DNA of 64,000 nucleotides from Streptomyces antarcticus (GTDB lineage Bacteria; Actinomycetota; Actinomycetes; Streptomycetales; Streptomycetaceae). The stretch lies in NCBI RefSeq assembly GCF_026627255.1, contig NZ_JAPNLM010000010.1, forward strand, positions 1 through 64,000, written 5' to 3'. This document shows, piece after piece, positions 27,688 through 57,575 of the stretch. Every line of letters starts with the position of its first letter. The first letter of the stretch is position 1. Made by a program: the position numbers and the translations under genes. Under the pieces are notes generated by a model. It saw only the letters and a program-made list of their open reading frames with translations. It was not told the origin of the DNA and ran no database searches.

Positions 27688-28573
27688 TGCGGCCGCCGTT
27701 GAGGCTGAACGCCGCCACGGTCACGGTGACGCCGGAGTGCTGGGCGACCAGGCCGGGCCGGCCGTTGACCGTCCGTTCCAGGAGGGTCAGCCCGGGTGCC
27801 TTGTCGGCGATGTGGACCAGGTACCGCGCGATGGCCTCGCCGCCTTCGACCGGCCGCAGGACGGTGCCGACCAGGCCGCCGCCGTCGGCGGTCATCGTGG
27901 CCCCGGGGTCGAGGAGGCCGACGAGTGCCTTGATGTCCTTGGCCTCCCACGCCTCCTTGAAGTCCCGTACGACACCGGCCTGTCCGGCCGACGGAACCAC
28001 CGGGGTGTGCGCGGCGCGCACGCGGCGGCGGGCCGAGGACGCCAGTTGCCGGCAGGCCGCGGGGGTCCGGCCGACGATCCGTGCGATGTCGGCGAAGGGG
28101 TAGCGGAAGACGTCGTGCAGGACGAACGCCACGCGTTCGGCCGGTGTCATCGACTCCAGCACGACGAGGAAGGCCATGTTCACCGACTCGTCCAGGGTGA
28201 TCCGGTCGGCGGGGTCCGTCGATGCGGCCGCGCCGCCGCCGGCCCGTCCGCTGATCCACTCCGTGCGGTCGGGCAGCGGCTCGGGTATCCACGCGCCGAC
28301 GTACCGCTCCCGCCGGGCCCGTGCCGAGCCGAGCACGTCCAGGCAGATGCGGCCGGCCACCGTCGTCAGCCAGGCGCCGGGCGACTCGACGGCCTCCCGC
28401 CGCTGCCGCGACATCGCGTACCAGCGGGTATAGGTCTCCTGCACGGCGTCCTCGGCCTCGGCCAGTGAACCGAGCAGCCGGTAGGCGAGATTGATCAGCT
28501 GGCGCCGCTCGTCGACGATCGTGCTCAGGCCCGGTTCGAACCGGTCGTGCCCTGCCTCGGATGGGGTGCTCAT
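27620..28573 (-). CDS. ECF41-type sigma factor with SnoaL-like C-terminal domain
   Basis: 317 residues. Sigma region 2 is INLAYRLLGSLAEAEDAVQETYTRW, region 4 MTPAERVAFVLHDVFRYPFADIAR. The hallmarks of the ECF41 group follow: WIPEPLPD in the linker and, in the NTF2/SnoaL-like C-terminal extension, DGGGLVGT and NPEKLR. That extension regulates the sigma factor in cis. The ATG at 28573 follows GGGAG at longer spacing. A CTCACC-N16-CGTC motif upstream, mirrored for the divergent gene, suggests autoregulation. A degraded copy of its 3' half lies at about 45.9 kb. Confidence 0.92.
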   Translation of the reverse strand: MSTPSEAGHDRFEPGLSTIVDERRQLINLAYRLLGSLAEAEDAVQETYTRWYAMSRQRREAVESPGAWLTTVAGRICLDVLGSARARRERYVGAWIPEPLPDRTEWISGRAGGGAAASTDPADRITLDESVNMAFLVVLESMTPAERVAFVLHDVFRYPFADIARIVGRTPAACRQLASSARRRVRAAHTPVVPSAGQAGVVRDFKEAWEAKDIKALVGLLDPGATMTADGGGLVGTVLRPVEGGEAIARYLVHIADKAPGLTLLERTVNGRPGLVAQHSGVTVTVAAFSLNGGRITRIWAVRNPEKLRPWTEDGPG

Positions 28574-28624
28574 GGTGGCGACCGCTCCCTGGTTCTTCTC
28601 GTCCGCTTCGTCTCTCGGTACTCC

Positions 28625-28650
28625 GACGAAACACCTCACCGGATGGTGAG
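28625..28650 (-). promoter_or_regulatory. Candidate ECF promoter of the sigma gene
   Basis: On the minus strand, CTCACC (28650-28645) is followed after exactly 16 bases by CGTC (28628-28625), about 50 bases before the ATG. It has the same architecture as the divergent promoter at 28664, which argues for use by the same sigma factor. Confidence 0.5.
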
Positions 28651-28663
28651 GTCCACGCGGCGC

Positions 28664-28689
28664 CTCACATTTTGCGGGCCCACGTCGTC
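28664..28689 (+). promoter_or_regulatory. Candidate ECF promoter of the divergent membrane protein gene
   Basis: CTCACA (28664-28669), 16 bases, CGTC (28686-28689), about 70 bases before the ATG. The pair matches the general ECF41 pattern of a TCACA-like -35 and a CGTC -10. Confidence 0.5.
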
Positions 28690-28757
28690 GGACCGGCGAG
28701 ACAGTGACGATGCACAGTGACGAACCACCGCCGCGAGGCAGAACAGGGGGCCGCGCC

Positions 28758-29162
28758 ATGGCCACGCAGACGACGGCAGCACCGGGCCGGCTCACGTTCC
28801 TCCAGGTCGCGATAGTCCTTCAGACCGCGTCCCTCTTCTTCCAGGCGGCCACCGCCGGACTGCTGCTGTCCTCGTCGTACGGCGCGACCCTGCACGACGT
28901 CGGCTCGCGCGTGATGTACGGCGCCTCGATGCTGTACCTACTCGTCGCGGTCCTGGCGTGGCGGCCGGGCGGCGGCTCGCCCCGACCCGTCCTCTACGCG
29001 TCCGGCTTCCTCGTCCTGGCTTCGGCGCAGGTGGTGCTGGGCATCGCGCACGTACCGTCGCTCCATGTCCCCCTGGGCATCCTGATGTTCGGCCTGAGCG
29101 TGCTGGATCTGGGCCGGGTGCTGTCCACCCGCTCGACGGGGCGCGCCGCGGCCCGGCCGTGA
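28758..29162 (+). CDS. Four-helix integral membrane protein
   Basis: 134 residues, four hydrophobic spans (AIVLQTASLFFQAATAGLLL, VMYGASMLYLLVAVLAW, VLYASGFLVLASAQVVLGIA, GILMFGLSVLDLGRVL). No catalytic motif. The ATG at 28758 has AGGGGG upstream. It is divergent from the ECF41 sigma gene with a matching promoter, so it is probably a member of that regulon. Two degraded copies of its 3' end occur in the island, at about 35.4 kb and 46.3 kb. Confidence 0.82.
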   Translation: MATQTTAAPGRLTFLQVAIVLQTASLFFQAATAGLLLSSSYGATLHDVGSRVMYGASMLYLLVAVLAWRPGGGSPRPVLYASGFLVLASAQVVLGIAHVPSLHVPLGILMFGLSVLDLGRVLSTRSTGRAAARP

Positions 29163-32339: not shown

Positions 32340-32400
32340 TCTACTGCCCGCGGGGTATCTGTAAGGCGCCTGGCCTGCGAAAACGGGCCACCGGACGGGC

Positions 32401-32480
32401 TGTCGCGAGGGTTCGCCCGTACCTGTATTGACCGCTGCTCACCGCTCCGAAGGGCACGGATAGGGCACGGATAGGGCACG
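32401..32480. repeat. Arm-type repeat flanking att copy A
   Basis: Contains CCTGTATTGACCGCTGCTCA followed by three GGGCACG units at 11-base spacing. The same segment, at the same distance from the tRNA fragment, occurs next to copies C (41536-41602) and E (51531-51600). The arrangement resembles integrase arm-binding sites of tyrosine-recombinase elements. The remaining sequence to 32729 shows no convincing gene. Confidence 0.6.
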
Positions 32481-35271: not shown

Positions 35272-35340
35272 TGCTCCGTGATGCCGTGCCCCTCCGCCGC
35301 GTTCCTGATCTCGGTGAGGGTGTCCCTCAGCGGCAGATCT

Positions 35341-35427
35341 GGACAACGAAGAAGGCCCAGGTCGTTGACCTGGGCCTTCTTGCAAGAGCGGATGACGAAA
35401 ATCGAACCCGCGCCATGAGCTTGGGAA
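35341..35427 (-). repeat. tRNA-Gly 3'-end fragment B with terminator hairpin
   Basis: Terminator arms 35352-35363 and 35367-35378 (12 bases, loop GTT), then 41 bases matching the tRNA 3' part (35387-35427) with a few substitutions, up to the GGGAA of the anticodon loop. The flank TCTATGGCGCG after the core is shared with copies C and E. It lacks the arm-type repeat on its right side; a duplicated block begins about 20 bases later instead. Confidence 0.9.
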
Positions 35428-35445
35428 TCTATGGCGCGTGAACGC

Positions 35446-35575
35446 CTCCAGGTGGCGCTGGGCATCGCACACATGTCATCGCCACATGTCCCCCTGGCCG
35501 TCCTGATGTTCGGCCTGAGCATGCTGGCACTTGGCCAGGTACTGCTCATCCACATGTCGAAGCGCTCAGGCACCC
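35446..35575 (+). pseudogene. 3' fragment of a four-helix membrane protein gene
   Basis: Encodes LQVALGIAHMSSPHVPLAVL...GLSMLALGQVLLIHMSKRSGT, closely matching the C-terminal third of the membrane protein at 28758-29162, without a start. An almost identical but slightly longer copy lies at 46270-46467. It is a remnant carried with the downstream cassette, not a gene. Confidence 0.8.
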
Positions 35576-35664
35576 GGTCGTGTGCGCAGGCCATGCGATG
35601 CCCACTCAGCCTGGCAGTCGCCTGCCATCCCGTGACGGGTGGCGAAGCCGGCATCCTCCCAACG

Positions 35665-36357
35665 TCAGCGCGTGGACGGGCTGGTGAGGTCGTCGTGTCC
35701 CCGGTCCGGCGCGTTGTTCACCAGGAGTCCGCTGCGCTCGGCCGCCAGGGCAGCCTGTACCCGGTTGGTCGCCCTGAGCTTGGCCAGGATGGCACTGACA
35801 TGTTCCTTCACGGTGCTGAGACTCGTGTACGTCTTGACGGCTATGGCGGTGTTGGTCAGCCCCTCGGCGAGCAGCCCTAGGACTTCGTGCTCGCGCTCTG
35901 TCAGCTGCGGCCGGGGTCCGCCCGACGGCAGGCGTCCATGCAGGGCGAGATGGCCGTCGATGACTGTGTTCCCCGGCCGGGGCGAGAGAGCGACACCGCC
36001 GGAGGCGATGAAGCGCACCATCGGTGCCAGGTGTTCGGGGTCGGTGTCCTTGAGCAGGAAGCCCGCCGCACCGGCCTGGAGGGCGCTGGTGAGGTGCTCG
36101 TCGGTGTCGAAGGTGGTCAGCATGCACACAGCCGGCGGATCCGGGAGTTCCCGGATCCGCCGCAACACCGTGAGCCCGTCGACGTCCGGCATCCGGATGT
36201 CGAGGAGTACCGCGTCGGGCGCCCGTTCGGCGATGGCCTCGATAGCACCTGCTCCGCTGGTCAGAGCGATGACATCGATATCACTCTCCGTCGAGAGGAT
36301 GCGTTGGAACCCGGTCCGGATGAGTGCTTCGTCGTCCACGATTACGACCTTGATCAC
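35665..36357 (-). CDS. NarL/LuxR-type response regulator of the peptide cassette
   Basis: 230 residues. The receiver has VVIVDDEALIRTGFQRIL with the acidic pair, phospho-acceptor Asp in AVLLDIRMPDVDG, and Lys in GFLLKDTDP. The LuxR helix-turn-helix is LTEREHEVLGLLAEGLTNTA followed by TVKEHVSAILAKL. The start is GTG at 36357. It is the last gene on the minus strand of a cassette that begins with the sensor kinase at 41031, and is the obvious partner of that kinase. Its 3' end is present again, nearly identical, at 46552-46737. Confidence 0.93.
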   Translation of the reverse strand: MIKVVIVDDEALIRTGFQRILSTESDIDVIALTSGAGAIEAIAERAPDAVLLDIRMPDVDGLTVLRRIRELPDPPAVCMLTTFDTDEHLTSALQAGAAGFLLKDTDPEHLAPMVRFIASGGVALSPRPGNTVIDGHLALHGRLPSGGPRPQLTEREHEVLGLLAEGLTNTAIAVKTYTSLSTVKEHVSAILAKLRATNRVQAALAAERSGLLVNNAPDRGHDDLTSPSTR

Positions 36358-36448
36358 CAGGCACTCCGCTCACATACCAGCACGGTGTCACCGGCGGCCC
36401 GGCCTGATGACGCCAGAGATCATACTGGCGGCCCGGGTGCCCGAAGCG

Positions 36449-37288
36449 TCACTGGCCCGAGCGGCGGGAGGCCGCGAGGGCCTGGCCGCCCAGACGGTCC
36501 GTGTCGGTGGGGGATCCGCCGAGCCGGTGAAGGAGTACCCATCGCCCGTCGGGGAGCGTTGCCGCGAAGACGGACGCTCCGTCAGTGGCACCGTTGTGCC
36601 AGGTCACGGCGCCGGTCTTCTGCCAGGTCGGGGCGGGCGGCCCGAGGAGTCTGTCGACGAGCAGCCCGGTCAGCAGTTGGGCGGCCGCCCGGGGAGTGGC
36701 CCAGAGGCCACCCGCGGGCAGGATGGCGCCATCCATGGTCCACGGCGTCCGGGGGCGGTTCAGCAGGCGGGTCGTCGCGAGCAGCCGCTGCTCGGCCGGG
36801 GGATGTGCCGTCATCTCGTCGATGCCCAGGGGCTCCAGGACGTAGGTGCGTACCACCTCCTCATACGGGACCCCGGCCGCCACGGACAGGGCTGAACCGA
36901 GCAGCGCGTAACCGAGGTTGGAGTACTCCTCGGACGCGCTGGGCGGAGCCGTGGCCATCTCGCCGAGACCGCCGAGCAGCGCGTCCAGGGCGGCCTGGTC
37001 GAAGCCGCCGTACGGGTTCCTGCGCGGCAGGCCCGGGGGCAGGCGGGGCAGCCCGGACGTGTGGTCCGCCAGGTGCCGCAGGGTGATGCCGCTGCCGGGC
37101 GGTGTGTCGAGCCAGCGTTCGATGGGATCGTCCACGCCGAGGACGTCGGCCTCGGCCATGCGCATCAACGCGGTGCCGGTGACGACCTTGGTCAGCGATC
37201 CGATCTGGACGTAGCCGGAGATGCTGTGGCCGTGGGTGACACGGGGTTCGATTCCACTGCCGAGAAGGCAGCTGGGTGTCCGGAACAC
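36449..37288 (-). CDS. Serine hydrolase, class C beta-lactamase fold
   Basis: 279 residues from the GTG at 37288. Motifs: SLTK near residue 30, YSN in SEEYSNLGYALLG, and a third motif HNGAT near 240. No signal peptide, and the fold starts very close to the SxxK, so the protein is about 50-80 residues shorter at the N-terminus than usual for the family. It may be cytoplasmic or N-truncated. It lies 13 bases after the SdpB-like gene in the same direction, so it is co-transcribed and may process or detoxify the product. Confidence 0.85.
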   Translation of the reverse strand: MFRTPSCLLGSGIEPRVTHGHSISGYVQIGSLTKVVTGTALMRMAEADVLGVDDPIERWLDTPPGSGITLRHLADHTSGLPRLPPGLPRRNPYGGFDQAALDALLGGLGEMATAPPSASEEYSNLGYALLGSALSVAAGVPYEEVVRTYVLEPLGIDEMTAHPPAEQRLLATTRLLNRPRTPWTMDGAILPAGGLWATPRAAAQLLTGLLVDRLLGPPAPTWQKTGAVTWHNGATDGASVFAATLPDGRWVLLHRLGGSPTDTDRLGGQALAASRRSGQ

Positions 37289-37301
37289 GGAGGGTCCCCT
37301 T

Positions 37302-38633
37302 TCACGAGCGGGTGCTGGGGCCGGGCAGGGCGCAGGCTTCCGAACTGCCCGGCATACGGTGCCTATTGTTCGCCACCCCGCGGTAACCGATAGCCGCGCA
37401 AGCCCTGATGCCGGGCGTGCGCAGCAGGGCCGCTGCCAGCCGGTATCCGCGTACGGGCGAGTCCCGTACGAATTCCGCCAGCGCCTGCGCCCCGCCGGCC
37501 AGGACACGCCCGTCCAGGAGGAGTAGTACCTCCCGGTCCAGTCGCTCCACATGTGGGTCGGTGACCTCGTCCGGGAGTGACTGCCAGGGCACGGCACGCA
37601 CCGTGGTCCGAGCGCCGGCGGTGATCCGACTCACGGCGGCCTGACAGAAGCCGCAGTCCCCGTCGAACGCCAGGACGGCGTCGGCCGGGACGGGCTCGCG
37701 GCGGCGCTGGGCCGCGCGGGCCCGGTCCAGGGCGGTCTCCAGCGCCCCGCTCAGGAACACGAGGTCGCACGCCACCATCGTGAGGGCGAAGCCGGTCAGG
37801 CCCATGACGGCGCCGATGGACACATGGAAACCGATGGAGACGACGGCAGCCCAGGGCCGCAGCCGCGGCACGAGGATGCCCATGGGGAAGTACACCAGGA
37901 ACAGCGTGGTGGAGTACGTCCCGATGAAGACGAGATAGTCGTTGCCGAACACCAGCTCGGACACGCCGGGGAGGTTGAACTCGGACACGCGCAGGACGTA
38001 GAACAGCGCCGTTCCGTCCTGCCACATGGGGCCCTGCACCTTGTACAGCCCGCTGACGACGTAGACCAGGCACATCTGGACGGCGATGGCGAGTACACCA
38101 AGATTGTGCAGCGGTGTGGACAGCGACCGCAGCACTGGGGGAACGCGCCGGGCGAGCGCGCGGGCGAGACCGGTGGGGTAGGAGAGGCGGTCGTAGCAGC
38201 GCGTCAGCAGGAGCATCGGGATGACGAGATAGGCGAGGTTGTCCCCGCCGTCCAGCAGTACGGGCTGACGCTGGTAGACGGACCACAGGAGGGCCCAGTG
38301 AACGGCGAGGCCGAGCCGGCCGCCGACACCGCAGGTGACCGCCAGCGCGGCCAGCATCCCCGCGTGGAAGACGATTTCGAACCACAGCGTGGAGTCGCTC
38401 AAGGTGTAGAGGCTGAAGGTGCCGTTCTCGTGGATCTGGGCGGTGAAGTCCGCCCAGGGCAGCACCCCGGCCGGACCGAAGAGGAACCGCCGGTCGCCGT
38501 ACTGGCTCGCGTAGTACATGAAGCCGACGAAGCCGAGCAGCATGCGGGTTCCGCTCACCCCCAGCACGCTGAGGGGTCGGCTGCCGACCGCGTCCAGCCG
38601 CTCGAGGAGCCGGTTCGTACGGGTACGGCTCAC
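37302..38633 (-). CDS. SdpB-like HTTM membrane protein with C-terminal DCC thiol-oxidoreductase domain
   Basis: 443 residues. The first 300 are an HTTM (vitamin-K-carboxylase-like) membrane domain: MLLGFVGFMYYASQYGDRRF, WALLWSVYQRQPVLLDGGDN, LVYVVSGLYKVQGPMWQDGT. The last 120 form a DCC1/DUF393 thiol-disulfide oxidoreductase domain with LAFDGDCGFCQAAV (C-x2-C). B. subtilis SdpB, needed to mature the SDP killing peptide, is an HTTM protein; the fused DCC domain is an addition. The start is GTG at 38633, overlapping the DUF5819 stop by 4 bases. Function is inferred from architecture and order. Confidence 0.82.
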   Translation of the reverse strand: MSRTRTNRLLERLDAVGSRPLSVLGVSGTRMLLGFVGFMYYASQYGDRRFLFGPAGVLPWADFTAQIHENGTFSLYTLSDSTLWFEIVFHAGMLAALAVTCGVGGRLGLAVHWALLWSVYQRQPVLLDGGDNLAYLVIPMLLLTRCYDRLSYPTGLARALARRVPPVLRSLSTPLHNLGVLAIAVQMCLVYVVSGLYKVQGPMWQDGTALFYVLRVSEFNLPGVSELVFGNDYLVFIGTYSTTLFLVYFPMGILVPRLRPWAAVVSIGFHVSIGAVMGLTGFALTMVACDLVFLSGALETALDRARAAQRRREPVPADAVLAFDGDCGFCQAAVSRITAGARTTVRAVPWQSLPDEVTDPHVERLDREVLLLLDGRVLAGGAQALAEFVRDSPVRGYRLAAALLRTPGIRACAAIGYRGVANNRHRMPGSSEACALPGPSTRS

Positions 38634-39277
38634 AGGAGATCCCCGGCCTTCATCCATTCCATGTCGTAGGCGTCGACCTGGCCTTCCGCAGCGGGATCGT
38701 GCCGCTCCGACCACGGGGGGAGCTTCTGGATGTACATGCGGACCTGCACCTGCTCGGGAGGGGCGCCGTCGCCGCACGTATTGGCCGGCAACTGCGTCAG
38801 GGAGTAGCGGGAAACGAAGCGCAGGGCTTCCTGCTGGGAGGTCTTCTCGTGGGGCATGAGGGGCAGTTCGGTCTTGTTCTTCGCCCGCTCGGACTCCCGC
38901 AGCCGGGCCAGCACGGCGTCCGAACCGCTCAGCTGCTGCATGTTCCCGGTCACCAGCCGAGACATGCGCGAGGGGAAGAACCTGCTGCTCTGCGCCGCTG
39001 CTATGTACTTCGCCGTCACGTCGTAGAAGGAGGTGACCGAGCCGTCCCGGCATTGCGCCCGGGCCAGGATTCCCCTGTTCTCCGACAGCGGGTCGGGTGC
39101 GAAGAGCATCCAGTTCTGGGCGGAGTACGGCTCCAGATAGGTGGCGACCTTGTTGTAGTACCGGATCTTCATCGGTGTGAGGGGCATCTGGGAGAAGGCT
39201 GCGGCGGCGAAGTGAAGGCCCAGGAGGGCGGCACCGATGAGCAGTGCCGCCCTCCTGGTCAAGTGGTGATCTCTCAC
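38630..39277 (-). CDS. SdpA-like / DUF5819 protein, membrane-anchored
   Basis: 215 residues. One N-terminal transmembrane or signal-anchor segment (AALLIGAALLGLHFAAAAF), then an extracytoplasmic domain with MKIRYYNKVATYLEPYSAQN and WMLFAPDPLSENRG, and a charged middle. Proteins of this type (DUF5819, SdpA family) accompany HTTM proteins in peptide-toxin operons. Overlaps both neighbours by 4 bases, so the peptide, SdpA-like and SdpB-like genes are translationally coupled. Its 5' third is duplicated at 46728-46967. Confidence 0.8.
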   Translation of the reverse strand: MRDHHLTRRAALLIGAALLGLHFAAAAFSQMPLTPMKIRYYNKVATYLEPYSAQNWMLFAPDPLSENRGILARAQCRDGSVTSFYDVTAKYIAAAQSSRFFPSRMSRLVTGNMQQLSGSDAVLARLRESERAKNKTELPLMPHEKTSQQEALRFVSRYSLTQLPANTCGDGAPPEQVQVRMYIQKLPPWSERHDPAAEGQVDAYDMEWMKAGDLL

Positions 39278-39588
39278 TTGTCGAAGACCGTCTCGACGGA
39301 CGTGCCCTCGGGGATGTCGGCCGGGCTGACGCCGCCGGTGAACTGTCCGGCGGCATCGGCCACCGACGGGCAGGCGGCCTTGGCGTGCACCCAGGCCTTG
39401 CCGGCGAACTTGCCGGCAGCCTTGCCGACGAAGGAACCGAAGCCCATCGGGCCGTTCTGGGGTCCGTCGACGGAAGCGACCGTGGCAGGAACCTCCTGCG
39501 CAGTGGCGGCCTGCGCGGACCCCTGGGTGGTGACGACCAGGGCCGCACCGCCGAGGGCTACACCGATGCCTGCCAGTACCTTCTTCAT
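39274..39588 (-). CDS. Small secreted peptide, putative SdpC-like pre-toxin
   Basis: 104 residues from the ATG at 39588, preceded by GAGGAA. A clear Sec signal (MKKVLAGIGVALGGAALVVT, cleavage likely after AQA) leaves about 77 residues. The mature part holds a Gly/Ala/Phe/Lys amphipathic stretch (MGFGSFVGKAAGKFAGKAW), one Cys in AACPSVADA, and an acidic tail. I know no family for it. A short signal-bearing peptide directly ahead of SdpA- and SdpB-like genes is the logic of sdpABC, where the third product becomes a membrane-active killing peptide. Length is about half that of SdpC. An alternative is a signalling peptide. Confidence 0.75.
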   Translation of the reverse strand: MKKVLAGIGVALGGAALVVTTQGSAQAATAQEVPATVASVDGPQNGPMGFGSFVGKAAGKFAGKAWVHAKAACPSVADAAGQFTGGVSPADIPEGTSVETVFDK

Positions 39589-39813
39589 TTCCTCAACTGC
39601 CTCTCTCGTGGATCTCTGCCCGCCCGGTTCGAAGTTGGGTTCGCCGCGCGGACAACTTCGGGTGAGCGGCGTGCGGGAGCACGCCGGCGCCACTCGACGA
39701 TCATGATTTCGGCACCGTCTGGCCGTTCGGTACCGGCCACTTGGCCGGACGAACCCGCCAGCTGGCTTCAGCGGGCGCGGAGATGCGCGGGAGGGGCCGG
39801 GGGGCAGGCCGAC

Positions 39814-41031
39814 TCAGGGGGACGTGGCCTGTGCGGGGTGCCGGGTCGGGAAGGAGGCGGTCACGAGATGCCCGCCGTCGTCGGTGGGGCGGGCCTCGAA
39901 GGTACCGCCGACGAGGTGGGCGCGTTCCGCCAGCCCGATGAGGCCGTAGCCGCCGGAGGGCAGGTCCGGGTCGGGGTGCGGGTCCGGGTCCGGGTCGGGG
40001 TGCGGGTCGGGGAGGCCGGGCGGGCCGTTGTGAATCCGGAGGCACAGGTGTCCGTCCGACTCGTGGAGCCGCACGCTGACGACGGCCCCCGGCGCGTGCT
40101 TGCGGATGTTGGTCAGAGCTTCCTGGACCGTGCGGTACACCGCGTGCTGGACCAAGGTGGGCCACCGGCTCGGGGAGCCGGTGGCAGGCTGAAGGAGGCG
40201 CGGGTCGATCCGCGCCTCGACCTCGAGCTGGCACTCGCGGATGAGCTGTGGAAGGTCGGCGAGCCGGGGCTGGGGCGCACCGGTGTCAGCGCGGTTGCCG
40301 CCGTCCCGCAGGACCCCCACCACCTGGCGCAGCTCGTCCAAAGTGCGGGCGGCCATGGTGCGCACGGCGCAGGCGGAATCCCGCACCGCGGGGTCGGACG
40401 TGGTCATCTGCAGCGCGGCGGCCTCGACGCTGATCAGGCTCACCTGATGGGCCACGACGTCGTGCATCTCACGGGCCAGGCGGGTGCGCTCGGCCACCAG
40501 CAGCCGCTCCGCCGACAGTGCGTCCTCGCGCGAGCGTGCCGCGGCGAGGTCGGCGACGCGTGCGGTGAGTTCCGCGCGGCTGCTGACGAGCAGGCCCAGC
40601 GCGACCGGCAGGATGGCCTGGGCAAAGGCGTCCATCAGGATGAAGTAGTCGGTGGGGTTGTCCCACGTGGCTTCCTCGGGGTTCAGCGTGTAGCCGCTCC
40701 AGAGGAGGAACACGACGGTGCACACGGTGACCACTTGGCGACGGGTGGTCATGAGCGCCACCGTGTACAGCGCGATCATGCTGGGGATGCAACTGTCCAG
40801 GTACATCCCGGGCAGGGTCGTCAGGAACGTGGCGATCGGCCAGCGACGCCGGGCCAGCACGACCACGGGCAGCGCGCACAGGGCCACCGTCGCGCAGAAC
40901 AGCTTCCGGGAGTCGTTCGTGTCGGCGTACGCCCATTCCAACTGGACGGCGATGTCGACGGTGGCGGCGCACGCCGGGAGCAGCAGCCACAGGGCCTGGG
41001 GTGCCCTCACCTGCCGACTTGCTCCGAACAC
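39814..41031 (-). CDS. Sensor histidine kinase of the peptide cassette
   Basis: 405 residues. About five N-terminal membrane helices (to residue 155), then the HisKA_3 H-box LAREMHDVVAHQVSLISVEA, and an HATPase domain with TVQEALTNIRKHAPG (N-box) and GGYGLIGLAERAHLVGG. Between them the ATP lid carries PDPHPDPDPDPHPDPD, coded by a GGGTCC-rich repeat at 39963-40015. GTG at 41031 with AAGGGG upstream. First gene of the cassette on the minus strand, about 225 bases before the peptide gene. Its partner regulator is at the other end. The short membrane loops suggest it senses the membrane or the peptide itself. Confidence 0.92.
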   Translation of the reverse strand: MFGASRQVRAPQALWLLLPACAATVDIAVQLEWAYADTNDSRKLFCATVALCALPVVVLARRRWPIATFLTTLPGMYLDSCIPSMIALYTVALMTTRRQVVTVCTVVFLLWSGYTLNPEEATWDNPTDYFILMDAFAQAILPVALGLLVSSRAELTARVADLAAARSREDALSAERLLVAERTRLAREMHDVVAHQVSLISVEAAALQMTTSDPAVRDSACAVRTMAARTLDELRQVVGVLRDGGNRADTGAPQPRLADLPQLIRECQLEVEARIDPRLLQPATGSPSRWPTLVQHAVYRTVQEALTNIRKHAPGAVVSVRLHESDGHLCLRIHNGPPGLPDPHPDPDPDPHPDPDLPSGGYGLIGLAERAHLVGGTFEARPTDDGGHLVTASFPTRHPAQATSP

Positions 41032-41340
41032 CCGTTTGCCCCTTCGAAGTTACTCGTTGGTCACTTTGCGACTATAGGGCCAGCCGCCTGGGGGTCCTCC
41101 CGGCGGTTTCGCGCTCCCCTGCCAGGTGCATCGAGGACGACTGCCGGAGTGCGCTGGAGGCAGAGGTGTGGCGCCGGCTGGGCGGCGATGGCAGCGAGCG
41201 CCGACATGCTCCCGGAGGCTGACGGTGCTCTGGCGGCAGGACGCGTCTGGTGAGGTGAGCGCTGTCCTGTCGTGGCAGCCGCTGTGGCGGGACTCAGATG
41301 ACAGCGGAAGGCGTGCGACGCCCAACCCGACGCTCCAATG

Positions 41341-41471
41341 GGTCACTTATCGCACGCGAATGGCACGCCGGGCGGGAGAGGTCTGGACAACGAAGAAGGC
41401 CCAGGTCTGTGACCTGGGCCTTCTTGCAAGAGCGGATGACGGGAATCGAACCCGCGCCATGAGCTTGGGAA
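41341..41471 (-). repeat. tRNA-Gly 3'-end fragment C with terminator and right-end arm
   Basis: 41341-41395 holds the arm-type sequence CGCACGCGAATGGCACG...GAGAGGTCTGGACAA, shared with copy D. The terminator arms are 41396-41407 and 41411-41422, and the tRNA 3' part is 41431-41471, complete to GGGAA. The shared flank TCTATGGCGCG follows. It ends the peptide-cassette module. Confidence 0.92.
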
Positions 41472-41535
41472 TCTATGGCGCGCGGGGTGTCGACAAGGCG
41501 CCTGAGCTGCAGAAACGAGCTGGTCGAGAAGTTGT

Positions 41536-41602
41536 CACGCGAGGGCGTCCGCACCCGTATTGACCGCTGTTCACCGCCTCGAAGGGCACGGATGGGGCAC
41601 GA
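41536..41602. repeat. Left-end arm-type repeat at att copy C
   Basis: GTATTGACCGCTGTTCACCG followed by two GGGCACG-type units. Aligns over about 110 bases with the flanks of copies A and E. Confidence 0.6.
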
Positions 41603-41799
41603 CAGCGGCGGCCGGCCGGTAGGTCGATGAGGTTCGCGTTTGGGCGCAGAGCCCAGCACTCCCCAGGCGGTGGAGCTGCCGCGCCCGGAGGCACTCACCC
41701 CGCCTGTCTTTCGAAGTTGATTCCAAGGGTTCCGGGCCGTCCTCTGCCGACCGGCGTTTACCGCCCTGACCGGCACGTAATGGCGCGCGCCGCTCAGAG

Positions 41800-41905
41800 T
41801 GCTTGGCCGGCCTGATCTGCGAGGTACGAGCGCAGGGCCGCGTGCGAGGAGCGTTCCGAGCCGCTCGCCCTGGCGTCCAGCCATGCATCGTCGTGCCGAC
41901 TGCCG
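41800..41905 (-). pseudogene. Relic of an alpha/beta hydrolase
   Basis: In one minus-strand frame the sequence reads DDAWLDARASGSERSSHAAL followed by RSYLADQ, which resembles the stretch DDTWLDAMVGRSVERSSATA of the hydrolase at 32730-33494. No start, active site or end is preserved. Confidence 0.5.
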
Positions 41906-42218
41906 GACGGTCAGGCTGTGTCGATGGCCACGAGCAGACCTGCCAGCGCCGGCCGTGCACCATGTGCAAGTCTGTTGGCGCAGGTCAGCCCAATATTCTT
42001 GGGTGTTCACCTGGGCTCATGAGCGTTCCCGCACCTCCGCCCGTCTGCAGCGTGGACGGTGCTGAACGCTGCTGCACCGACCTGAATGAGACGGGATTGA
42101 AGCAGGTCCAGAAGCAGGGCCAGACGGCGGCCTCGCGCCGCCGCGAAGACGGCCTGCTGCGTGAAGAGGACCCGCGACGACGAGACCCTTTGGCCGGAGA
42201 ACCACTCGCCCTTACGCA

Positions 42219-42238
42219 CAGAGCCCGGCCGGGCTCTG
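42219..42238. terminator. Perfect 20-base palindrome, terminator-like
   Basis: CAGAGCCCGGCCGGGCTCTG. It has no adjacent gene end that I recognise, so it may be the terminator of a gene that has decayed. Confidence 0.4.
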
Positions 42239-42560
42239 CCATGTCCCGCCCGACGCGACCTCGAAGCTCGCAGGGACGGGGGAGACGGCCCCGTCTCCGA
42301 GGCGGCTTCCTGACGTTATGTCACTCACATAGACCATTTTTTCTGATTTGTGGGCAATTGCATTGGAATATGCGTGACTGTTCCCGTGTAACGGCATATC
42401 ACTACCTCGGGCAGGGAGCCGCTCTCGCAGTCCTCGCTCAGGGGGAGCCTGCGCGCCCGGCGCAGGTTGGGGCTTGCGGCCCCGCGTAGCCATCGTCGCG
42501 GTCGCTCGGGAACCTCCTCCGGGAGGACCTGAGACCCGAAGCAACAAGAAAGGTCCTGCT

Positions 42561-43793
42561 GTGGCATTGGATGTCATCCGGTCGGGTCCACCCGACAGAA
42601 GGCCTCGACGCAATCTGTTCAAACGGGGAGCTCTTGTCCTGCTCCCCGCAGCGATCCTGGCGGCGGCAACCCTGGTCCCGAACCTCGCTCACGCCCTGGA
42701 AGCTCCCGTCGGGCTGGGGACCGCCACCAATTACGCGGTCCTGGCCGGTTCAACGGTCACCAACACGGGCCCCTCCGTCATCAACGGAGATCTGGGGCTC
42801 CATCCGGGCACATCGGTAACCGGCTTTCCGCCCGGCATCGTCAACGGAACGCAGCACATCACCGACGCCGCCGCCGCTCAGGCGAAGTCCGACCTCGTCG
42901 TCGCCTACAACGACGCGGCAAGCCGGGGACCCGGCACCGCCACTTCGGCCGATATCGGCGGACAAACGCTGGCGCCCGGCGTCTACACGGCCTCGTCGAC
43001 ACTGAACATCACCGGAACGGTCACTCTCGACGGCCAGAACAACCCCGATGCCGTCTTCATCTTCCAGATCCCCTCGACCCTGATCACGGCTCCGGCGAGT
43101 GTCGTGGCCTTCATCAACGGGGCAAATGCCTGCAACGTGTTCTGGCAGGTGGGCAGCTCCGCCACCATCGACACGACCTCCCAGTTCAAGGGCAACATCC
43201 TGGCCCTGACGTCCATCACGCTGAACACGGGCGCCGTGCTCGAAGGCCGTGCCCTGGCGCGTAATGGCGCTGTCACGCTGGACACCAACACCATCACGCG
43301 GGCGGCCTGCGCCGTTGGCCCGCCTGGCCCGCCTGGGCCTCCCGGGCCGACCGGCAGCCCTGGCCCGACGGGCCCGACCGGCGCCCCCGGCCCGACGGGT
43401 GCTCCCGGCCCTGACGGCAGCCCTGGCGCCCCCGGCCCGACGGGTGCTCCCGGCCCTGACGGCAGCCCTGGCGCCCCCGGCCCGACCGGCGCCCCCGGCC
43501 CCGTCGGCGCCCCCGGACCTGCCGGACCTGCCGGACCTGCCGGACCTGCCGGACCTGCTGGACCTGCTGGACCTGCCGGACCCGCCGGACCCAAGGGGCC
43601 TCGCGGCGACAAGGGCGAAAAGGGTGACGCGGGCGATCACGACCACGGTCACGACGACGAGGGCGAGCACGGTCACGACCACGGCGAGCACGGTCACGAC
43701 CACGGCAAGCCCGGTCACGACCACGGCAAGCCCGGCCACGACCACGGCAAGCCCGGGCACGGCCACGACGGCTCCGACCAGGGCAAGCCCTAG
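42561..43793 (+). CDS. Secreted DUF3494 (ice-binding-like) protein with collagen-like and His/Asp-rich tail
   Basis: 410 residues from the GTG at 42561 (AAAGG upstream). Signal peptide: [20 protein letters not shown] up to about LAHA. Residues 48-250 are the DUF3494 beta-helix domain ([36 protein letters not shown]). Then about 90 residues of Gly-Pro-X triplets ([17 protein letters not shown]..., [10 protein letters not shown]), a short charged [14 protein letters not shown], and a tail of [14 protein letters not shown] repeats that could bind metal ions. No LPxTG sorting signal in this frame. It is probably a surface adhesin or matrix protein. DNA repeats make it prone to length change. Confidence 0.9.
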
Positions 43794-44159
43794 TCGGCCG
43801 ACTTCCTACCAGGCGGCTTCCACGATGCTCTGGGCCACGTAGGTCCCGGGCACACCGCCAAGAACGTCAACTTCACCCCTGTAAGCGCCGCCACCGGCCT
43901 GCGGTCGAAGGAGACGACGCCAGGCCCTCACCGCGACCGACTTGAGCAGCGAGGTCAGCATCATGGCCGCCACTGCAGCCGCGCCGGCATTCGTCGGAGG
44001 CTCGGCCGTCTTCGCCATGAGGCGGACCCGGCGAGGTGGAGCAACCCGACAGGACTAGCCCTTCGTAGAAAGGCTGACGCTCGATCAACCACATAGGCAG
44101 TTCGGTCCGCCGTTCGGCAGCTGAGCCCCTGGAGACACCGTCCGGGGGTTCAGTGGCGC
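43794..44159. other. Gap after the collagen-like gene, possible decayed surface-protein tail
   Basis: In a plus-strand frame ending at the TAG at 44056-44058 one reads AATAAAPAFVGGSAVFAMRR TRRGG, the pattern of a membrane-spanning C-terminal tail of Streptomyces surface proteins. It is not in frame with the collagen-like gene and no complete gene surrounds it. It may be a frameshifted original C-terminus. Confidence 0.3.
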
Positions 44160-45083
44160 TCACGGGCTCGGCAGGGACAGCGCGCGGGCATCCCGGCACG
44201 ATTCTGGGTCGGCGTACGCCCTGATGGTTTCCTTGATGAAATGCCGGGTGCCTTCCGGGCTCAGCGCCTGGGCCTGCAAGTGCGCATGCATGCCGCTGTA
44301 GCGTCCCACGTCGGATCGTTTCTCCAGATAGAGGTCGCTGGTGAACCTCTCCAGATACACCACGCACACATCGGTGGTGTCGGCGAACTCGAGCAGTGAG
44401 AACTGCCCCGAGACGCCTGGGTGCGCACCTGCATCGTGAGGGAGAACCTGCATGGTGACGTGCGGCTGGGCGCTGAGGTGGGCCAGATGCTTCAGCTGCT
44501 CGCGCATGACCTCGCGGCTGCCCACGACGCGCCACAGCACCGATTCGTCCAGCACGGCCCATAGGCGCAGTGGGTTGCCCGGGGCGCGAAGCCGGTCCTG
44601 GCGCCGCATCCGCACCTGGAGGCGGGTGGCGGCCTGCTCGGCAGTGGCGTGAGGGATCGTTCCTGCGATGACCGCTCGTGCGTAGGCGGGGGTCTGCAGC
44701 AGGCCGGGGACCACCAGGGGCTCGTAGAACCGGATCGCGGCCGCTTCGGCCTCCAGGCCGATGTAGGCGCCGTACGGGATGTCGTCGTAGGCGTTCCACC
44801 AGCCCGGCTGACCCGATTCGCCGGCCATTTGCATCAGATCGTCGACGCGCCGCTGATCCCGGACTCCGTACAGCCCGCAGAGATCTCGCACATCGCGCGG
44901 CTTGATGGGTCGGCGGCCGTTCTCCAGCAGGCTGATCTTGGGCTGGGAGATCAGCAGGCGCGCCGCCACCTGCTGCGTCGTCATACCGCTGACCTCCCGG
45001 AGCCGACGCAGCTCCGCCCCCAGTCGGCGCCTGCCGATGGTGGGATTGGCAGTGACACCCACGGGGCGCGTACCTCCGTTCAA
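44160..45083 (-). CDS. XRE-family regulator with DUF5753 domain
   Basis: 307 residues. N-terminal XRE helix-turn-helix (TTQQVAARLLISQPKISLLE) at about 34-53, followed by the DUF5753 region (IRFYEPLVVPGLLQTPAYAR, HVTMQVLPHDAGAHPGVSGQ, FSLLEFAD, VVYLERFTSDLYLE). Streptomyces carry dozens of such genes, usually followed by a small DUF397 gene; that partner is missing here. Probably a developmental or toxin-antitoxin-like regulator. ATG at 45083 lacks a strong ribosome site. Confidence 0.92.
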   Translation of the reverse strand: MNGGTRPVGVTANPTIGRRRLGAELRRLREVSGMTTQQVAARLLISQPKISLLENGRRPIKPRDVRDLCGLYGVRDQRRVDDLMQMAGESGQPGWWNAYDDIPYGAYIGLEAEAAAIRFYEPLVVPGLLQTPAYARAVIAGTIPHATAEQAATRLQVRMRRQDRLRAPGNPLRLWAVLDESVLWRVVGSREVMREQLKHLAHLSAQPHVTMQVLPHDAGAHPGVSGQFSLLEFADTTDVCVVYLERFTSDLYLEKRSDVGRYSGMHAHLQAQALSPEGTRHFIKETIRAYADPESCRDARALSLPSP

Positions 45084-45185
45084 GAACCTTGCACCGGCGA
45101 GCAGATTGCCACGGCCAGAGCAACTGGATTCGCTTTGGCCCCCGTGTCGTACAGGGTAATTCGATAATTACAACCAGAGAACGCA

Positions 45186-45540: not shown

Positions 45541-45664
45541 GACTTATGGCACGCGAATGGCACGCGGGCTCTGAGAGGTCTGGACAACGAAGAAGCCCCA
45601 GGTCGCTGACCTGGGGCTGTCGTATGGAGCGGATGACGGGAATCGAACCCGCGCTATAAGCTTG
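45541..45664 (-). repeat. tRNA-Gly 3'-end fragment D with covarying terminator and right-end arm
   Basis: Arm sequence GGCACGCGAATGGCACGCGG at 45547-45566, terminator arms AGCCCCAGGTC (45594-45604) and GACCTGGGGCT (45608-45618), tRNA 3' part 45628-45664. The hairpin differs from the other copies by a base change on each side that keeps pairing. The core is shorter than in B, C and E, ending at GCTTG, and no left-end arm follows. Confidence 0.9.
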
Positions 45665-45870
45665 TTCCGCGGCCAGCTGCCCGTACGACCAGGCACCACG
45701 CCCGCGGCCCGTGCGGTGGCGGTCGACGCCTTGTGCGCAGAGGCCCCCAGCCAGCACGGCGACCCAGAGACCACCGCGGGCCGCCACGGGAACCGGCAAC
45801 AGACCCACGGCCGCGAGGACGGCACCGGCGGCAAGCACCCTGCCGATCGCGGATGGTGCGCCCGCTCTCC

Positions 45871-46240
45871 TCAAAGGCCCGTCGCTCCTTGCCGGAGCTT
45901 TTCCGGGTTGCGGACCGCCCAGATACGAGTGATGCGGCCGCCAGTGACGCTGAACGCCGCCACGGTCACGGCGACGCCGGCGTGCTGGGCGACCAGGCCG
46001 GGCCGGCGGTTGACCGTCCGCTCGAGAAGCGTCAGCCCAGGGGCTTTGCCGGCGATGTGGATCAGGTACTGGGCGGTGCTCCTGGCGCCTTCGACCAACC
46101 GGGCGCAGAACGGTTCCGACCTGGCCGCCGCCGTCGGCGGTCATCGTGGCGTCGGGGGGCGAGGAGGTCTACGAGGGCATCGATGTCCCTGGCCTCCCAC
46201 GCCTCCTTGAAATGCCGCACCAGACCGGCCTGCCAGGCCG
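45871..46240 (-). pseudogene. ECF41 sigma factor, C-terminal fragment
   Basis: Reads WQAGLVRHFKEAWEARDIDA LVDLLAP, then after a frameshift near 46090 LIHIAGKAPGLTLLERTVNR and GGRITRIWAVRNPEKLRQ. These match the SnoaL-like C-terminal domain of the sigma factor at 27620-28573 at roughly 80% identity by eye. The sigma domains are absent. Confidence 0.85.
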
Positions 46241-46269
46241 ACGACCTCGGCGACCTCGGCGACCTCGGC

Positions 46270-46467
46270 GAAGCCTGGCGGCGGCTCGCCCGCCCCATCC
46301 TGTACGCGTCCGGATTCCTCGTACTCGCTTCACTGCAGGTGGCGCTGGGCATCGCACACATGTCATCGCCACATGTCCCCCTGGACATCCTGATGTTCGG
46401 CCTGAGCATGCTGGCACTTGGCCAGGTACTGCTCATCCACATGTCGAAGCGCTCAGGCACCCGGTCG
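46270..46467 (+). pseudogene. Four-helix membrane protein, 3' fragment
   Basis: Plus-strand frame AWRRLARPILYASGFLVLAS, ...ILMFGLSMLALGQVLLIHMS. Same order and orientation relative to the sigma fragment as the intact pair at 27620-29162, but the start regions and promoters of both have been deleted. From 46332 on the DNA is almost identical to 35450 onward. Confidence 0.85.
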
Positions 46468-46551
46468 TGTGCGCAGGCCATGCGATGCCCACTCAGCCTG
46501 GCAGTCGCCTGCCATCCCGTGACGGGTGGCGAAGCCGGCATCCTCCCAACG

Positions 46552-46737
46552 TCAGCGCGTGGACGGGCTGGTGAGGTCGTCGTGTCCCCGGTCCGGCACG
46601 TTGTTCACCAGGAGTCCGCTGCGCTCGGCCGCCAGGGCAGCCTGTACCCGGTTGGTCGCCCTGAGCTTGGCCAGGATGGCACTGACATGTTCCTTCACGG
46701 TGCTGAGACTCGTGTACGTCTTGACGGCTATGGCGGT
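46552..46737 (-). pseudogene. Response regulator, C-terminal fragment (duplicate)
   Basis: Encodes TAIAVKTYTSLSTVKEHVSA to the stop, as in the regulator at 35665-36357 with one residue changed near the end (NNAPD to NNVPD). The receiver domain is deleted; at 46737 the sequence jumps to the SdpA-like gene. Confidence 0.9.
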
Positions 46738-46967
46738 GTGACCGAGCCGTCCCGGCATTGCGCCCGGGCCAGGATTCCCCTGTTCTCCGACAGCGGGTCG
46801 GGTGCGAAGAGCATCCAGTTCTGGGCGGAGCACGGCTCCAGATAGGTGGCGACCTTGTTGTAGTACCGGATCTTCATCGGTGTGAGGGGCATCTGGGAAA
46901 AGGCTGCGGCGGCGAAGTGAAGGCCCAGGAGGGCGGCACCGATGAGCAGTGCCGCCCTCCTGGTCAA
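46728..46967 (-). pseudogene. SdpA-like gene, N-terminal fragment (duplicate)
   Basis: Begins MTRRAALLIGAALLGLHFAA and runs through SENRGILARAQCRDGSVT before joining the response regulator fragment. Nearly identical to codons 7-82 of the gene at 38630-39277 (one change, EPYSAQN to EPCSAQN). Upstream of codon 7 homology ends, so the peptide gene is not duplicated. Confidence 0.9.
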
Positions 46968-47169
46968 GCGGGTGGCTGCGGGTCGGCGGGTCGGCTCGGC
47001 CTGGACGCACCTACCAGAACCTGGTCCGTGCCAGTGCCCGTCATCCGTGGTCGGTCGTCATCCGCACTGTCAACTGCCCGTCATTACCCCTGAGGTAATC
47101 GTTTTCTCTGGCGCCCCCGAAGAAGCTTGATCCATCGAAGCGATCAAGCGATCACGAACGGGGAACGAC

Positions 47170-48201
47170 ATGAACATGCGGCGGTACACGCGCACCGGAG
47201 TGTTCGCGGCGGCCACTCTCCTCGCAGGCCTCACCATCGGTGCCGCGCCGGCCACCGCCACCGCCGAGGGCGGCGAGTGCGCCGAGGTCCGCGAGAAGGT
47301 AGACCGGCTCGAAGGGCGGATCACCCCGAACGCTTGCGCCTTCATGAAGCGGCAGATCGTCTTCGGCGAGGCCCCCAGCCTCCAGACCTACCTGGACATC
47401 TTCGACGAGGAGGCCAGCCTCTGGGAGGCCGGCGGCAAGCCCCAGCGCGGTCACGAAGTGATCGGCGCCTCGATCAGCAACTCGCTCCGCCTTGTGCCGG
47501 ACCTCCGCTATCGCGGCACGAACGTGGTCGCCGACGGCGCCGTAATGATGTTCGGTCAGCAGAACACGGTCACCCTCAAGGGCCACAAGGTCAGCTACCC
47601 GCAGATCGCCCGCAACGTCCTCGGCGATGATGGCAAGACCATCCAGGCCCGCCGCTACTACGACCGCTACGAGCTGTTCCAGGTCTTGCCCGAGTCTCAG
47701 CGGCCCCGCCCCCTCTTCGCCGGCATCGCCGACCCGGCCGGCCCCGGCCCGCGCGGAGCGGCCCCCGACCGGTTCCACGCCCAGGAAATCCCCGCCCGCC
47801 TCGCCGCCTGGAACAGCGGGGACGCTGCCGCGCTGGCCGTCCGTACCGGCAACGCCAAGCTGGCCGGGCCCGGCCTGGACCGGTCGCTGACCACCCAGGA
47901 GGGCAAGACCGCTTACCTGCAGCGGCTGTTCGAGAACGCCGACGTCGAGTTCAAGGCGGGCCAGGTTGCCTTCGGCCGCACCACCACTTACATCGAGTGG
48001 CATGGCACGATGACCGACCCCAACGGCACCGACCCCAACGGTACCGACCCCAACGGCACCGACCGCAAGGGCACCGACATCCCCTTCGGGATCGTCGAGC
48101 GCATTGGCCCGAAGGGCGAGTGGGAGCTCTACTTCGACACCCTGCCGGTGATCGCGGACGAGGACGAGATCCGCGGCCTGTTCAAGGTGCTCGCGAGCTA
48201 G
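47170..48201 (+). CDS. Secreted protein with two SnoaL/NTF2-like domains
   Basis: 343 residues. Signal peptide in the first 32 (TGVFAAATLLAGLTIGAAPA). Two NTF2-like halves: about 50-165 (TYLDIFDEEASLWEAGGKPQ, RRYYDRYELFQV) and 195-330 (EIPARLAAWNSGDAAALAVR, WELYFDTLPVIADEDEIRGL). A TDPNGTDPNGTDPNGTD insert (about 283-298) comes from a 15-base tandem repeat at 48012-48062. No catalytic residues can be pinned down; polyketide-cyclase or scaffold roles are possible. It stands alone in the island with no close partners. Confidence 0.85.
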   Translation: MNMRRYTRTGVFAAATLLAGLTIGAAPATATAEGGECAEVREKVDRLEGRITPNACAFMKRQIVFGEAPSLQTYLDIFDEEASLWEAGGKPQRGHEVIGASISNSLRLVPDLRYRGTNVVADGAVMMFGQQNTVTLKGHKVSYPQIARNVLGDDGKTIQARRYYDRYELFQVLPESQRPRPLFAGIADPAGPGPRGAAPDRFHAQEIPARLAAWNSGDAAALAVRTGNAKLAGPGLDRSLTTQEGKTAYLQRLFENADVEFKAGQVAFGRTTTYIEWHGTMTDPNGTDPNGTDPNGTDRKGTDIPFGIVERIGPKGEWELYFDTLPVIADEDEIRGLFKVLAS

Positions 48202-48537
48202 TGCGGTCGTGCACCGGCCGCTCCCTGAGCTGGCCTCCGGCCCGCCGGAACAATTGCGGTTCAGTGTGAACGAAGGACGCCGGTGGTGGGTCATGACGAA
48301 CACCGGGGAGTGCACCGGCGGCTCATCACCCCACCAGCCCTGCCACTCGTAGTCCTGCCAGGGCCCGCACTGAGGCCCGAACTTGCTGCGTCACAGCGAC
48401 TGTGGCGCAGGCACGTGGGGAATCGAACCTGCGCGTTTACCTCCCTGACCGGCACGTACGGGCACGCACCGTCCAGACGAATGCGGCCAGAACTGGAACC
48501 AGGGGACACGGCTTGGGTCGGCCTGGTGTCCGGCTGT
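48202..48537. other. Gap with a possible second-type att relic
   Basis: No gene. 48418-48432 (GTGGGGAATCGAACCTGC on the plus strand) looks like the T-arm end of a tRNA, followed by GACCGGCACGTACGGGCACG, which resembles arm repeats. A related piece without the tRNA part is at about 41735-41775. May be debris from another integration. Confidence 0.35.
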
Positions 48538-51335: not shown

Positions 51336-51468
51336 CTACGAGTTGGGGCACGCGGAGGGCACGGCATGGCCTGAGAGGCCTGGACAATAAAGAAGGCCCA
51401 GGTCGTTGACCTGGGCCTTCTTGGAAGAGCGGATGACGGGAATCGAACCCGCGCTATAAGCTTGGGAA
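51336..51468 (-). repeat. tRNA-Gly 3'-end fragment E with terminator and right-end arm
   Basis: 51336-51390 has ACGAGTTGGGGCACGCGGAG...GGCACGG, almost the same as the flank of the intact tRNA (57411-57468). Terminator arms 51393-51404 and 51408-51419, tRNA 3' part 51428-51468 complete to GGGAA and identical to the intact tRNA over that length. The flank TCTATGGCACGC follows. Confidence 0.93.
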
Positions 51469-51530
51469 TCTATGGCACGCAGGGCATTCATATAGCATCT
51501 GGCCTGCGGAAACAGTTAACCAAGCGGTCT

Positions 51531-51600
51531 GTTGCGAGTGCCCGCCCCGACCCATATTGACCGCTGTTCACCGCTCCGAAGGGCACGGGTAGGGCACGGT
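51531..51600. repeat. Left-end arm-type repeat at att copy E
   Basis: CATATTGACCGCTGTTCACC and then GGGCACGGGTAGGGCACGG. Same spacing from the tRNA fragment as at copies A and C. The region from here to 52067 has no supportable gene. Confidence 0.65.
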
Positions 51601-57496: not shown

Positions 57497-57504
57497 CTTG
57501 GAAG

Positions 57505-57575
57505 AGCGGATGACGGGAATCGAACCCGCGCTATAAGCTTGGGAAGCTCATGTTCTACCATTAAACTACATCCGC
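57505..57575 (-). tRNA. tRNA-Gly (anticodon CCC)
   Basis: 71 bases, complete cloverleaf on the minus strand. Acceptor GCGGATG/CATCCGC, D-arm GTTT-AATGGTA-GAAC, anticodon stem TGAGC/GCTTA with loop TTCCCAA (anticodon CCC), T-arm GCGGG-TTCGATT-CCCGT. CCA is not encoded. It serves as the attachment site: the 3' half is repeated in five places to its left. It lies just upstream of the dcd region. Confidence 0.97.

Follow-up and report, generated by a model that had tools for sequence, protein, structure and literature searches.

A CIME is an integrase-less element flanked by att sites, without a recombinase or transfer genes of its own, and an integron cassette array is built from an IntI integrase and attC-type recombination sites. 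Elements that stand in a row at one site are the subject of two papers: one reports the accretion and decay of AICEs and DAICEs in Streptomyces (PMC9513070), and the other reports that tandem AICEs of Actinobacteria form arrays sharing a site, which are unstable and prone to recombination and loss (PMC3218068). Open-access searches found no title naming a tRNA-Gly(CCC) array, which is not a claim that such an array is absent from print.

We analysed a window, meaning the whole stretch of 64,000 nucleotides from Streptomyces antarcticus, in which an earlier note had described a deleted duplicate of a peptide-cassette module. This duplicate (copy 2) is very probably the defunct remainder of a second cassette copy, standing in a decaying tandem array at a tRNA-Gly(CCC) gene; the cassette with open frames is called copy 1. 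The process is best read as tandem accretion with deletional decay of integrase-less modules, a process already in print for other sites in Streptomyces. Other genomes of the genus are given by our own handles (G199 and so on).

Repeats at the tRNA-Gly(CCC) gene

The window holds six direct repeats, all in one direction, starting at 32245, 35330, 41371, 45564, 51364 and 57441 (nhmmer). Each consists of the 3' half of tRNA-Gly and a terminator hairpin. Only plus-strand matches were kept after orienting, the minus-strand matches in the window being the repeats' own hairpin. The repeats around the two copies, and the tRNA gene, are as follows.

35330-35457, plus strand: att-like repeat left of copy 1 (nhmmer, 129 bits)
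41371-41499, plus strand: att-like repeat right of copy 1 (nhmmer, 129 bits)
45564-45697, plus strand: att-like repeat left of copy 2 (blastn and nhmmer)
51364-51497, plus strand: next att-like repeat to the right of copy 2 (nhmmer, 136 bits)
57504-57575, minus strand: tRNA-Gly (CCC), the presumed integration site (ARAGORN)

The blastn homology of the repeat left of copy 2 to the other repeats stops at 45664, within the tRNA half, and the DNA that follows it, 45665-45892, gave only weak, scattered translated matches. Tandem accretion is marked by successive modules bounded by tRNA 3'-end repeats with an intact tRNA at one end, and this is what we found in the window. The rightmost repeat lay in the tRNA-Gly(CCC) gene in all 15 array pieces in which a tRNA was found, the window included; these pieces came from genomes chosen for repeat or module matches, and four pieces without a tRNA gene were excluded. 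Among 121 sampled genomes of the genus, that of the window counted with them, 96 had at least one repeat match at an E value of 1e-8 and 30 had at least three, with the tRNA gene counted as one, matches taken genome-wide and at most seven candidates scored per genome. After three of the repeats in the window comes a common stretch of about 125 bp (32341-32470, 41482-41601 and 51476-51599, lying within aligned blocks that are 80-81% identical), which is perhaps a conserved end of integrative elements.

Members of one tyrosine integrase family, 55-96% identical to each other pairwise, occur at full length in the arrays of G199, G257 and G012, and G209, G187 and G046 have C-terminal parts, which adjoin a repeat or share a contig with repeats; a seventh relative, G167, had no integrase match on the contig bearing its repeats. 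From their position, we infer that the repeats are the att sites of this integrase family. No member of the family stands in the window, where a search with an E limit of 1 gave only four matches, of 19-33 residues. The genome itself has 25 matches to the family, all outside the window, and the integrase may be supplied in trans from elsewhere in the genome. The nearest relative of the array integrase in the same genome is broken and 50% identical (C22:229980-230719), the integrases elsewhere in it being more distant. This broken gene (G000:C22:229713-230719) adjoins a short tRNA-like repeat match.

A Pfam scan of 24 window proteins, encoded between 27.6 and 57.2 kb, found no integrase, transposase or transfer domain; two short predicted frames, 42983-43228 and 46728-46877, were left out of it. 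A transposon or insertion sequence as the agent was rejected because none of the 24 proteins has a transposase domain.

The cassette with open frames and its deleted copy

Copy 1 and the fragment to its left comprise the following features.

35449-35604, plus strand: truncated fragment of a small membrane protein gene, left of copy 1 and joined to the cassette at about 35582-35604
35605-41370, minus strand: copy 1 cassette, frames open (Pfam; 97.3% identical to G199 over 35605-41482)
35665-36357, minus strand: LuxR-type response regulator (Pfam)
36449-37288, minus strand: serine hydrolase, PF00144 (Pfam)
37302-38633, minus strand: HTTM/DCC1-like membrane protein (Pfam)
38630-39277, minus strand: DUF5819 protein (Pfam)
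39274-39588, minus strand: 104-residue peptide, signal-like at its start (judged by eye; without a family match)
39814-41031, minus strand: histidine kinase (Pfam)

The earlier note had called the DUF5819 gene SdpA-like. SdpABC is a peptide-toxin operon of Bacillus subtilis, and the likeness consists of three neighbouring products: a small peptide that starts like a signal sequence, a membrane protein of the HTTM/SdpB type and a short accessory protein. The name is nonetheless weak: the accessory protein is a DUF5819 protein without an NCBIfam match, its HTTM/DCC1-like neighbour scores 59.2 bits against the SdpB model TIGR04033 (cut-off 178.4), and the cassette includes a two-component system and a serine hydrolase. 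The pairing of an SdpB-family with an SdpA-family protein that marks the operon was thus not found in the cassette. Relatives of the cassette core (HTTM protein, serine hydrolase, DUF5819 protein and hypothetical peptide) occur on Streptomyces plasmids: with 35605-41482 as the query, NZ_CP108617.1 matched at 72% over 46% of the query and NZ_CP135078.1 at 67% over 46%. Of 67 named plasmid records with a match, 51 are from Streptomyces.

Copy 2 and its surroundings are made up of fragments, which are listed from left to right.

45893-46243, minus strand: C-terminal part of a SigJ-type sigma factor gene (86% identical to 27648-27993, 88% to G239)
46244-46272, no strand: join within the sigma-factor/membrane-protein pair (three tandem GACCTCGGC copies; about 970 bp absent relative to 27993-28964)
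46273-46468, plus strand: C-terminal part of a small membrane protein gene (84% identical to 28964-29123)
46469-46491, no strand: join of the membrane-protein fragment to the cassette (also in copy 1 at 35582-35604, absent from G199)
46492-46739, minus strand: C-terminal fragment of the response regulator with downstream DNA (keeps residues 169-230 of 230)
46738-46739, no strand: deletion join of copy 2 (2-bp overlap GT; equivalent of 35853-39032 gone)
46738-46971, minus strand: N-terminal fragment of the DUF5819 gene (from codon 6; start codon lost; stop two codons past the join)
46972-48403, plus strand: SnoaL-domain protein module fused to copy 2 (gene 47170-48201; Pfam PF12680; 97-98% identical to G012, G046 and G257)

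The main deletion was evident from blastn within the window. Positions 46333-46739 match 35446-35852 without gaps at 403 of 407 positions (E 0), and 46738-46968 match 39033-39263 at 229 of 231 (E 4e-119); extending the right match to 46971/39266 adds one more mismatch. The jump at 46738 omits the equivalent of 35853-39032, a stretch of 3,180 bp (about 3.2 kb). These matches agree with the earlier note, which had seen 46332-46736 nearly repeat 35450-35850 and then jump to the equivalent of 39033-39255, and they support its account of a second cassette copy without the interval from the DNA-binding end of the regulator to the N-terminal region of the DUF5819 protein. That only a few substitutions separate the copies was also borne out: there are seven differences in total, and six in about 636 bp without the edge position. 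The difference at 35448/46335 probably lies just outside copy 1, because the orthologues have the base of copy 2 there. The GTG-type microhomology that had been proposed at the jump exists as an overlap, but one of 2 bp (GT) and not the full GTG, and it gives no firm indication of a repair pathway. Nor does the copy reach the start of the DUF5819 gene, as had been thought; it ends 11 bp before the start codon, so that codons 1-5 are lost or changed.

The repeated DNA also starts further left than the earlier note had it. Stretches 45893-46243 and 46273-46431 match 27648-27993 (86%) and 28964-29123 (84%), respectively, in blastn within the window, and 45893-46431 is an internally deleted sigma-factor/membrane-protein gene pair that had gone unnoticed. 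The intact sigma-factor paralogue, 27620-28573, scores above the cut-off for NF007214 SigJ (NCBIfam), and ECF41 is another name for sigma factors of this type. The small membrane protein has no Pfam or NCBIfam match, and its label "DoxX-like" was given by eye; alignment of its copy 2 fragment with G187 and G385 runs to 46466-46468. The older join at about 46468-46492 is common to both copies. In G199, the cassette starts beside a truncated repeat and the sigma-factor/membrane-protein pair ends 2.2 kb further left. Because the join of the membrane-protein fragment to the cassette is shared by copies 1 and 2 and absent from G199, both copies appear to descend from one already fused unit. The single jump of the earlier note is therefore present but is not alone: there are at least four joins, at 45664, 46243/46273, 46738 and 46971, in addition to the older shared one.

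To the right, the cassette homology ends at 46971, and the match to the SnoaL module starts at 46978/46984 (G012, 97.8%; G046, 97.6%). In G046 and G257 this module is enclosed by two att repeats, and in G012 it lies immediately to the left of one. The DNA after the copy, which had been described as unrelated, is indeed not cassette DNA, but it is a module that in relatives is found between or beside att repeats. The cassette and the SnoaL module would each be expected to have a repeat of its own between 45697 and 51364, but nhmmer found none in that interval. The SnoaL-domain gene has a short direct repeat at 48013-48078, which encodes a repeated NGTDP-type stretch.

Copy 2 would yield no cassette product, because the regulator is truncated, the DUF5819 gene has lost its start codon and meets an early stop, and the two frames are not fused. 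The DUF5819 match in copy 2 contains one TGA and one TAG. An in-frame fusion protein across 46738 was rejected, as the regulator and DUF5819 frames do not join. A 152-codon frame (46552-47010) does stay open across the join, and the regulator fragment keeps part of the helix-turn-helix domain (residues 169-230), so one could imagine that either the fragment or this frame acts on copy 1 as a decoy regulator or a source of antisense RNA. We regard this as highly improbable: the first 18 residues of the GerE domain, which spans regulator residues 151-205 (Pfam), are absent from the fragment, the 152-codon frame is mostly out-of-frame DUF5819 DNA, and the form was unseen among the matches listed in 391 other genomes and in 60 further ones. 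The reading of copy 2 as a dead remnant is the one we follow below.

Age and origin of the second copy

In the 391 other genomes, neither the 46738 join nor the membrane-protein/cassette join was spanned among the matches listed, with two candidates per genome, and neither was seen in 60 further genomes, 36 of which were genomes of the same genus again. The 46738 join also gave no match in a separate genome-contig collection, which may leave these genomes out, since a control stretch of DUF5819 DNA that is present in the window, common to both copies and, by alignment, to G199, gave no match there either. A relative of the DUF5819 protein at 1e-20 was found in 26 of 392 genomes of the genus (that of the window included), and only G199 had a close one (98%; the next was 64%). 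No genome of the 392 had two close DUF5819 copies, except the window with its remnant. Strains with a full second cassette, which the earlier note had proposed looking for, were not found among the 392 (at most seven candidates scored each). Twelve loci fetched from the 24 other DUF5819 genomes had no repeat within the 8-20 kb taken, which indicates that tRNA-Gly(CCC) is not the site of this cassette family in general; of the 14 DUF5819 loci examined, only those of the window and of G199 lie there.

G199 has the whole cassette (L037 11713-17566) between a truncated and a full repeat, 97.3% identical over 5,879 aligned columns, and it served as an outgroup for the two copies. The derived base is that of copy 1 at 35711 and 39264 and that of copy 2 at 46831 and 46899; that is, G199 has the base of copy 2 at 46598 and 46969 and that of copy 1 at 39126 and 39194. 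Comparison with membrane-protein orthologues makes the copy 1 base at 35500 a derived one, and polarity is undecided at 35498/46385, where three states occur. Both copies have therefore changed.

These bases also bear on whether copy 2 is a misassembly, a chimeric contig made from collapsed or mis-joined repeats, which was the earlier note's own refuter. The genome is a draft of 89 contigs, and the joins of copy 2 were unseen in the other genomes searched, as an artefact would have it. Nevertheless, G199 shares bases with each copy where the other differs, which an error would hardly reproduce; there are six substitutions in about 636 bp, with the G199 bases at 46598 and 46969 in copy 2 and not in copy 1, and both flanks of copy 2 are matched elsewhere (the SnoaL side in G046, G012 and G257, the sigma-factor side in G239 and others). 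Misassembly is thus very unlikely.

Copy 2 differs from copy 1 by 0.9% (6 of about 636), whereas the window differs from G199 by 2.7% over the whole cassette, by 5.6-6% in the 248-bp regulator part (14 or 15 of 248) and by 8.6% in the core DNA beside the tRNA. The earlier suggestion of a recent duplication or acquisition holds relative to the species split (0.9% against 2.7% and 8.6%), and only in that sense. The six cassette genes have a synonymous divergence (dS) from G199 of 0.004-0.064, and three core genes adjoining the tRNA have one of 0.19-0.27. Cassette dS lies far under that of the core genes, so the cassette passed between lineages after the species had separated. A similar contrast holds for the SnoaL gene, with a dS of 0.05-0.06 against 0.25-0.40 for core genes (G046, G012 and G257). 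Compared with silent changes, those that alter an amino acid are not rare between the window's cassette and that of G199, and for the hydrolase and the peptide dN was at or above dS, with few changes. These values give no sign of selective constraint on copy 1.

Taken together, these data suggest the following course of events. Elements with one integrase specificity would have entered the tRNA gene successively. In an ancestor with a G199-like layout, a deletion would have removed the repeat between the sigma-factor/membrane-protein module and the cassette, fusing both, and the fused unit would then have become two, either because repeats exchanged unequally or because it integrated again. 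Copy 1 would have retained the cassette and lost most of its fused neighbour. In copy 2, end joining at short homology would have removed the middle (46738). Part of the sigma-factor/membrane-protein pair would also have gone (46243/46273), as would the right end of the copy together with the next repeat (46971), a loss that would have fused the remnant to the SnoaL module.

A variant of the doubling step is that copy 2 was not duplicated in this lineage but acquired as a separate element from another strain. A second acquisition would fit the fact that both the cassette and the SnoaL module have passed from species to species, that such arrays grow as one element enters after another, and that private substitutions are about equally many in the two copies. 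The shared membrane-protein/cassette join, unspanned in the 391 other genomes among the matches listed, favours one local origin, while the donor of a fused unit may be unsampled. We consider a second acquisition quite conceivable, at somewhat less than an even chance. By either route, the reading of copy 2 as a dead remnant is kept.

Shared modules and comparison with known systems

Other modules of the window also recur in arrays of other species. G209 has a match to the ice-binding module (41708-45163) at 90-94%, with a repeat on either side, and 51928-56820 matches G012 at 94.1% over 4.9 kb. For the cassette and the SnoaL module, identity to the arrays of other species exceeds that of the core genes adjoining the tRNA. 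Core DNA was compared in 105 genome pairs; a segment of 600 bp or more is common to both genomes in 65 of them, and 40 pairs have no such segment. The best shared segment was more than 3 points above the core in 29 of the 65 pairs and below this in 36, the choice of the best segment favouring the result. Ends of shared segments fell within 300 bp of repeats in 106 of 544 cases, against a random mean of 52 and a maximum of 74 (1000 trials); this test is weak, as the repeats are mutually homologous and the segments are not independent.

One could go further and regard the tRNA-Gly(CCC) arrays as a genus-wide pool of small integrase-less modules (the peptide cassette, the ice-binding protein, the SnoaL protein, an AbiE-like pair and a redox/transport operon) that are exchanged as units between species with an integrase from another array member. 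The array would then be an integron-like repository of tRNA half-repeats, and the deleted duplicate a by-product of repeated capture of one cassette. If array segments were exchanged by homologous recombination, the pattern of sharing would look no different from that of self-moving modules, and we hold this wider reading to be doubtful.

Some observations extend beyond the copies themselves. Far left of the repeats, 15368-17966 and 5578-7251 match inter-repeat module DNA of G054 (94.1% and 84.2%, respectively), and 5578-7251 also matches G038 (84.0%); because of these matches to inter-repeat DNA elsewhere, the accretion region may once have covered much of the window. A module of G012 (L069 16745-18434) encodes an AbiEi-like regulator together with another protein, which has no Pfam match and is AbiEii-like by eye, and the AbiEi-like module recurs beside or between repeats in G012, G025, G039, G074, G083 and G257.

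On our preferred reading, that of a dead remnant in a decaying array, copy 2 is a base-level record of a captured cassette that was doubled and then destroyed at a tRNA gene. The shared join would date the doubling after one deletion, and the later joins point to repeats lost and modules merged, so that counts of modules based on repeats would underestimate past captures. Of more interest than the remnant is its setting, in which small modules are shared between arrays. Because synonymous divergence of the shared modules is several-fold under that of adjacent core genes, an exchange of modules at tRNA-Gly(CCC) is open to direct test.

When the locus is set beside known systems, copy 1 has the layout of a CIME, lying between the repeats 35330-35457 and 41371-41499 without recombinase or transfer genes, and copy 2 lacks it, having lost its right repeat. 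The array is not an integron, as its repeats are tRNA-Gly 3' halves and the integrase of the relatives scores 26.2 bits against a cut-off of 220 bits for NF040815 (Xer/integron). An AICE is marked by an integrase, a replication initiator and TraB, and no domain of these was found among the 24 proteins scanned. The window resembles the AICEs of PMC3218068 in tandem integration in one tRNA gene; those elements have rep, tra and int genes, and none was found among the 24 proteins scanned. The likeness to the elements of PMC9513070 is one of layout: several elements and a remnant stand in a row at one tRNA gene with direct repeats between them, and the integrase has been lost, leaving cargo genes and truncated integrases between repeats. 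There, accretion took place at tRNA-Arg and decay in a glycosyltransferase gene, whereas the site here is tRNA-Gly(CCC). Unlike those elements, the window has no transfer gene among the proteins scanned, and it carries a broken duplicate of a nearby module.
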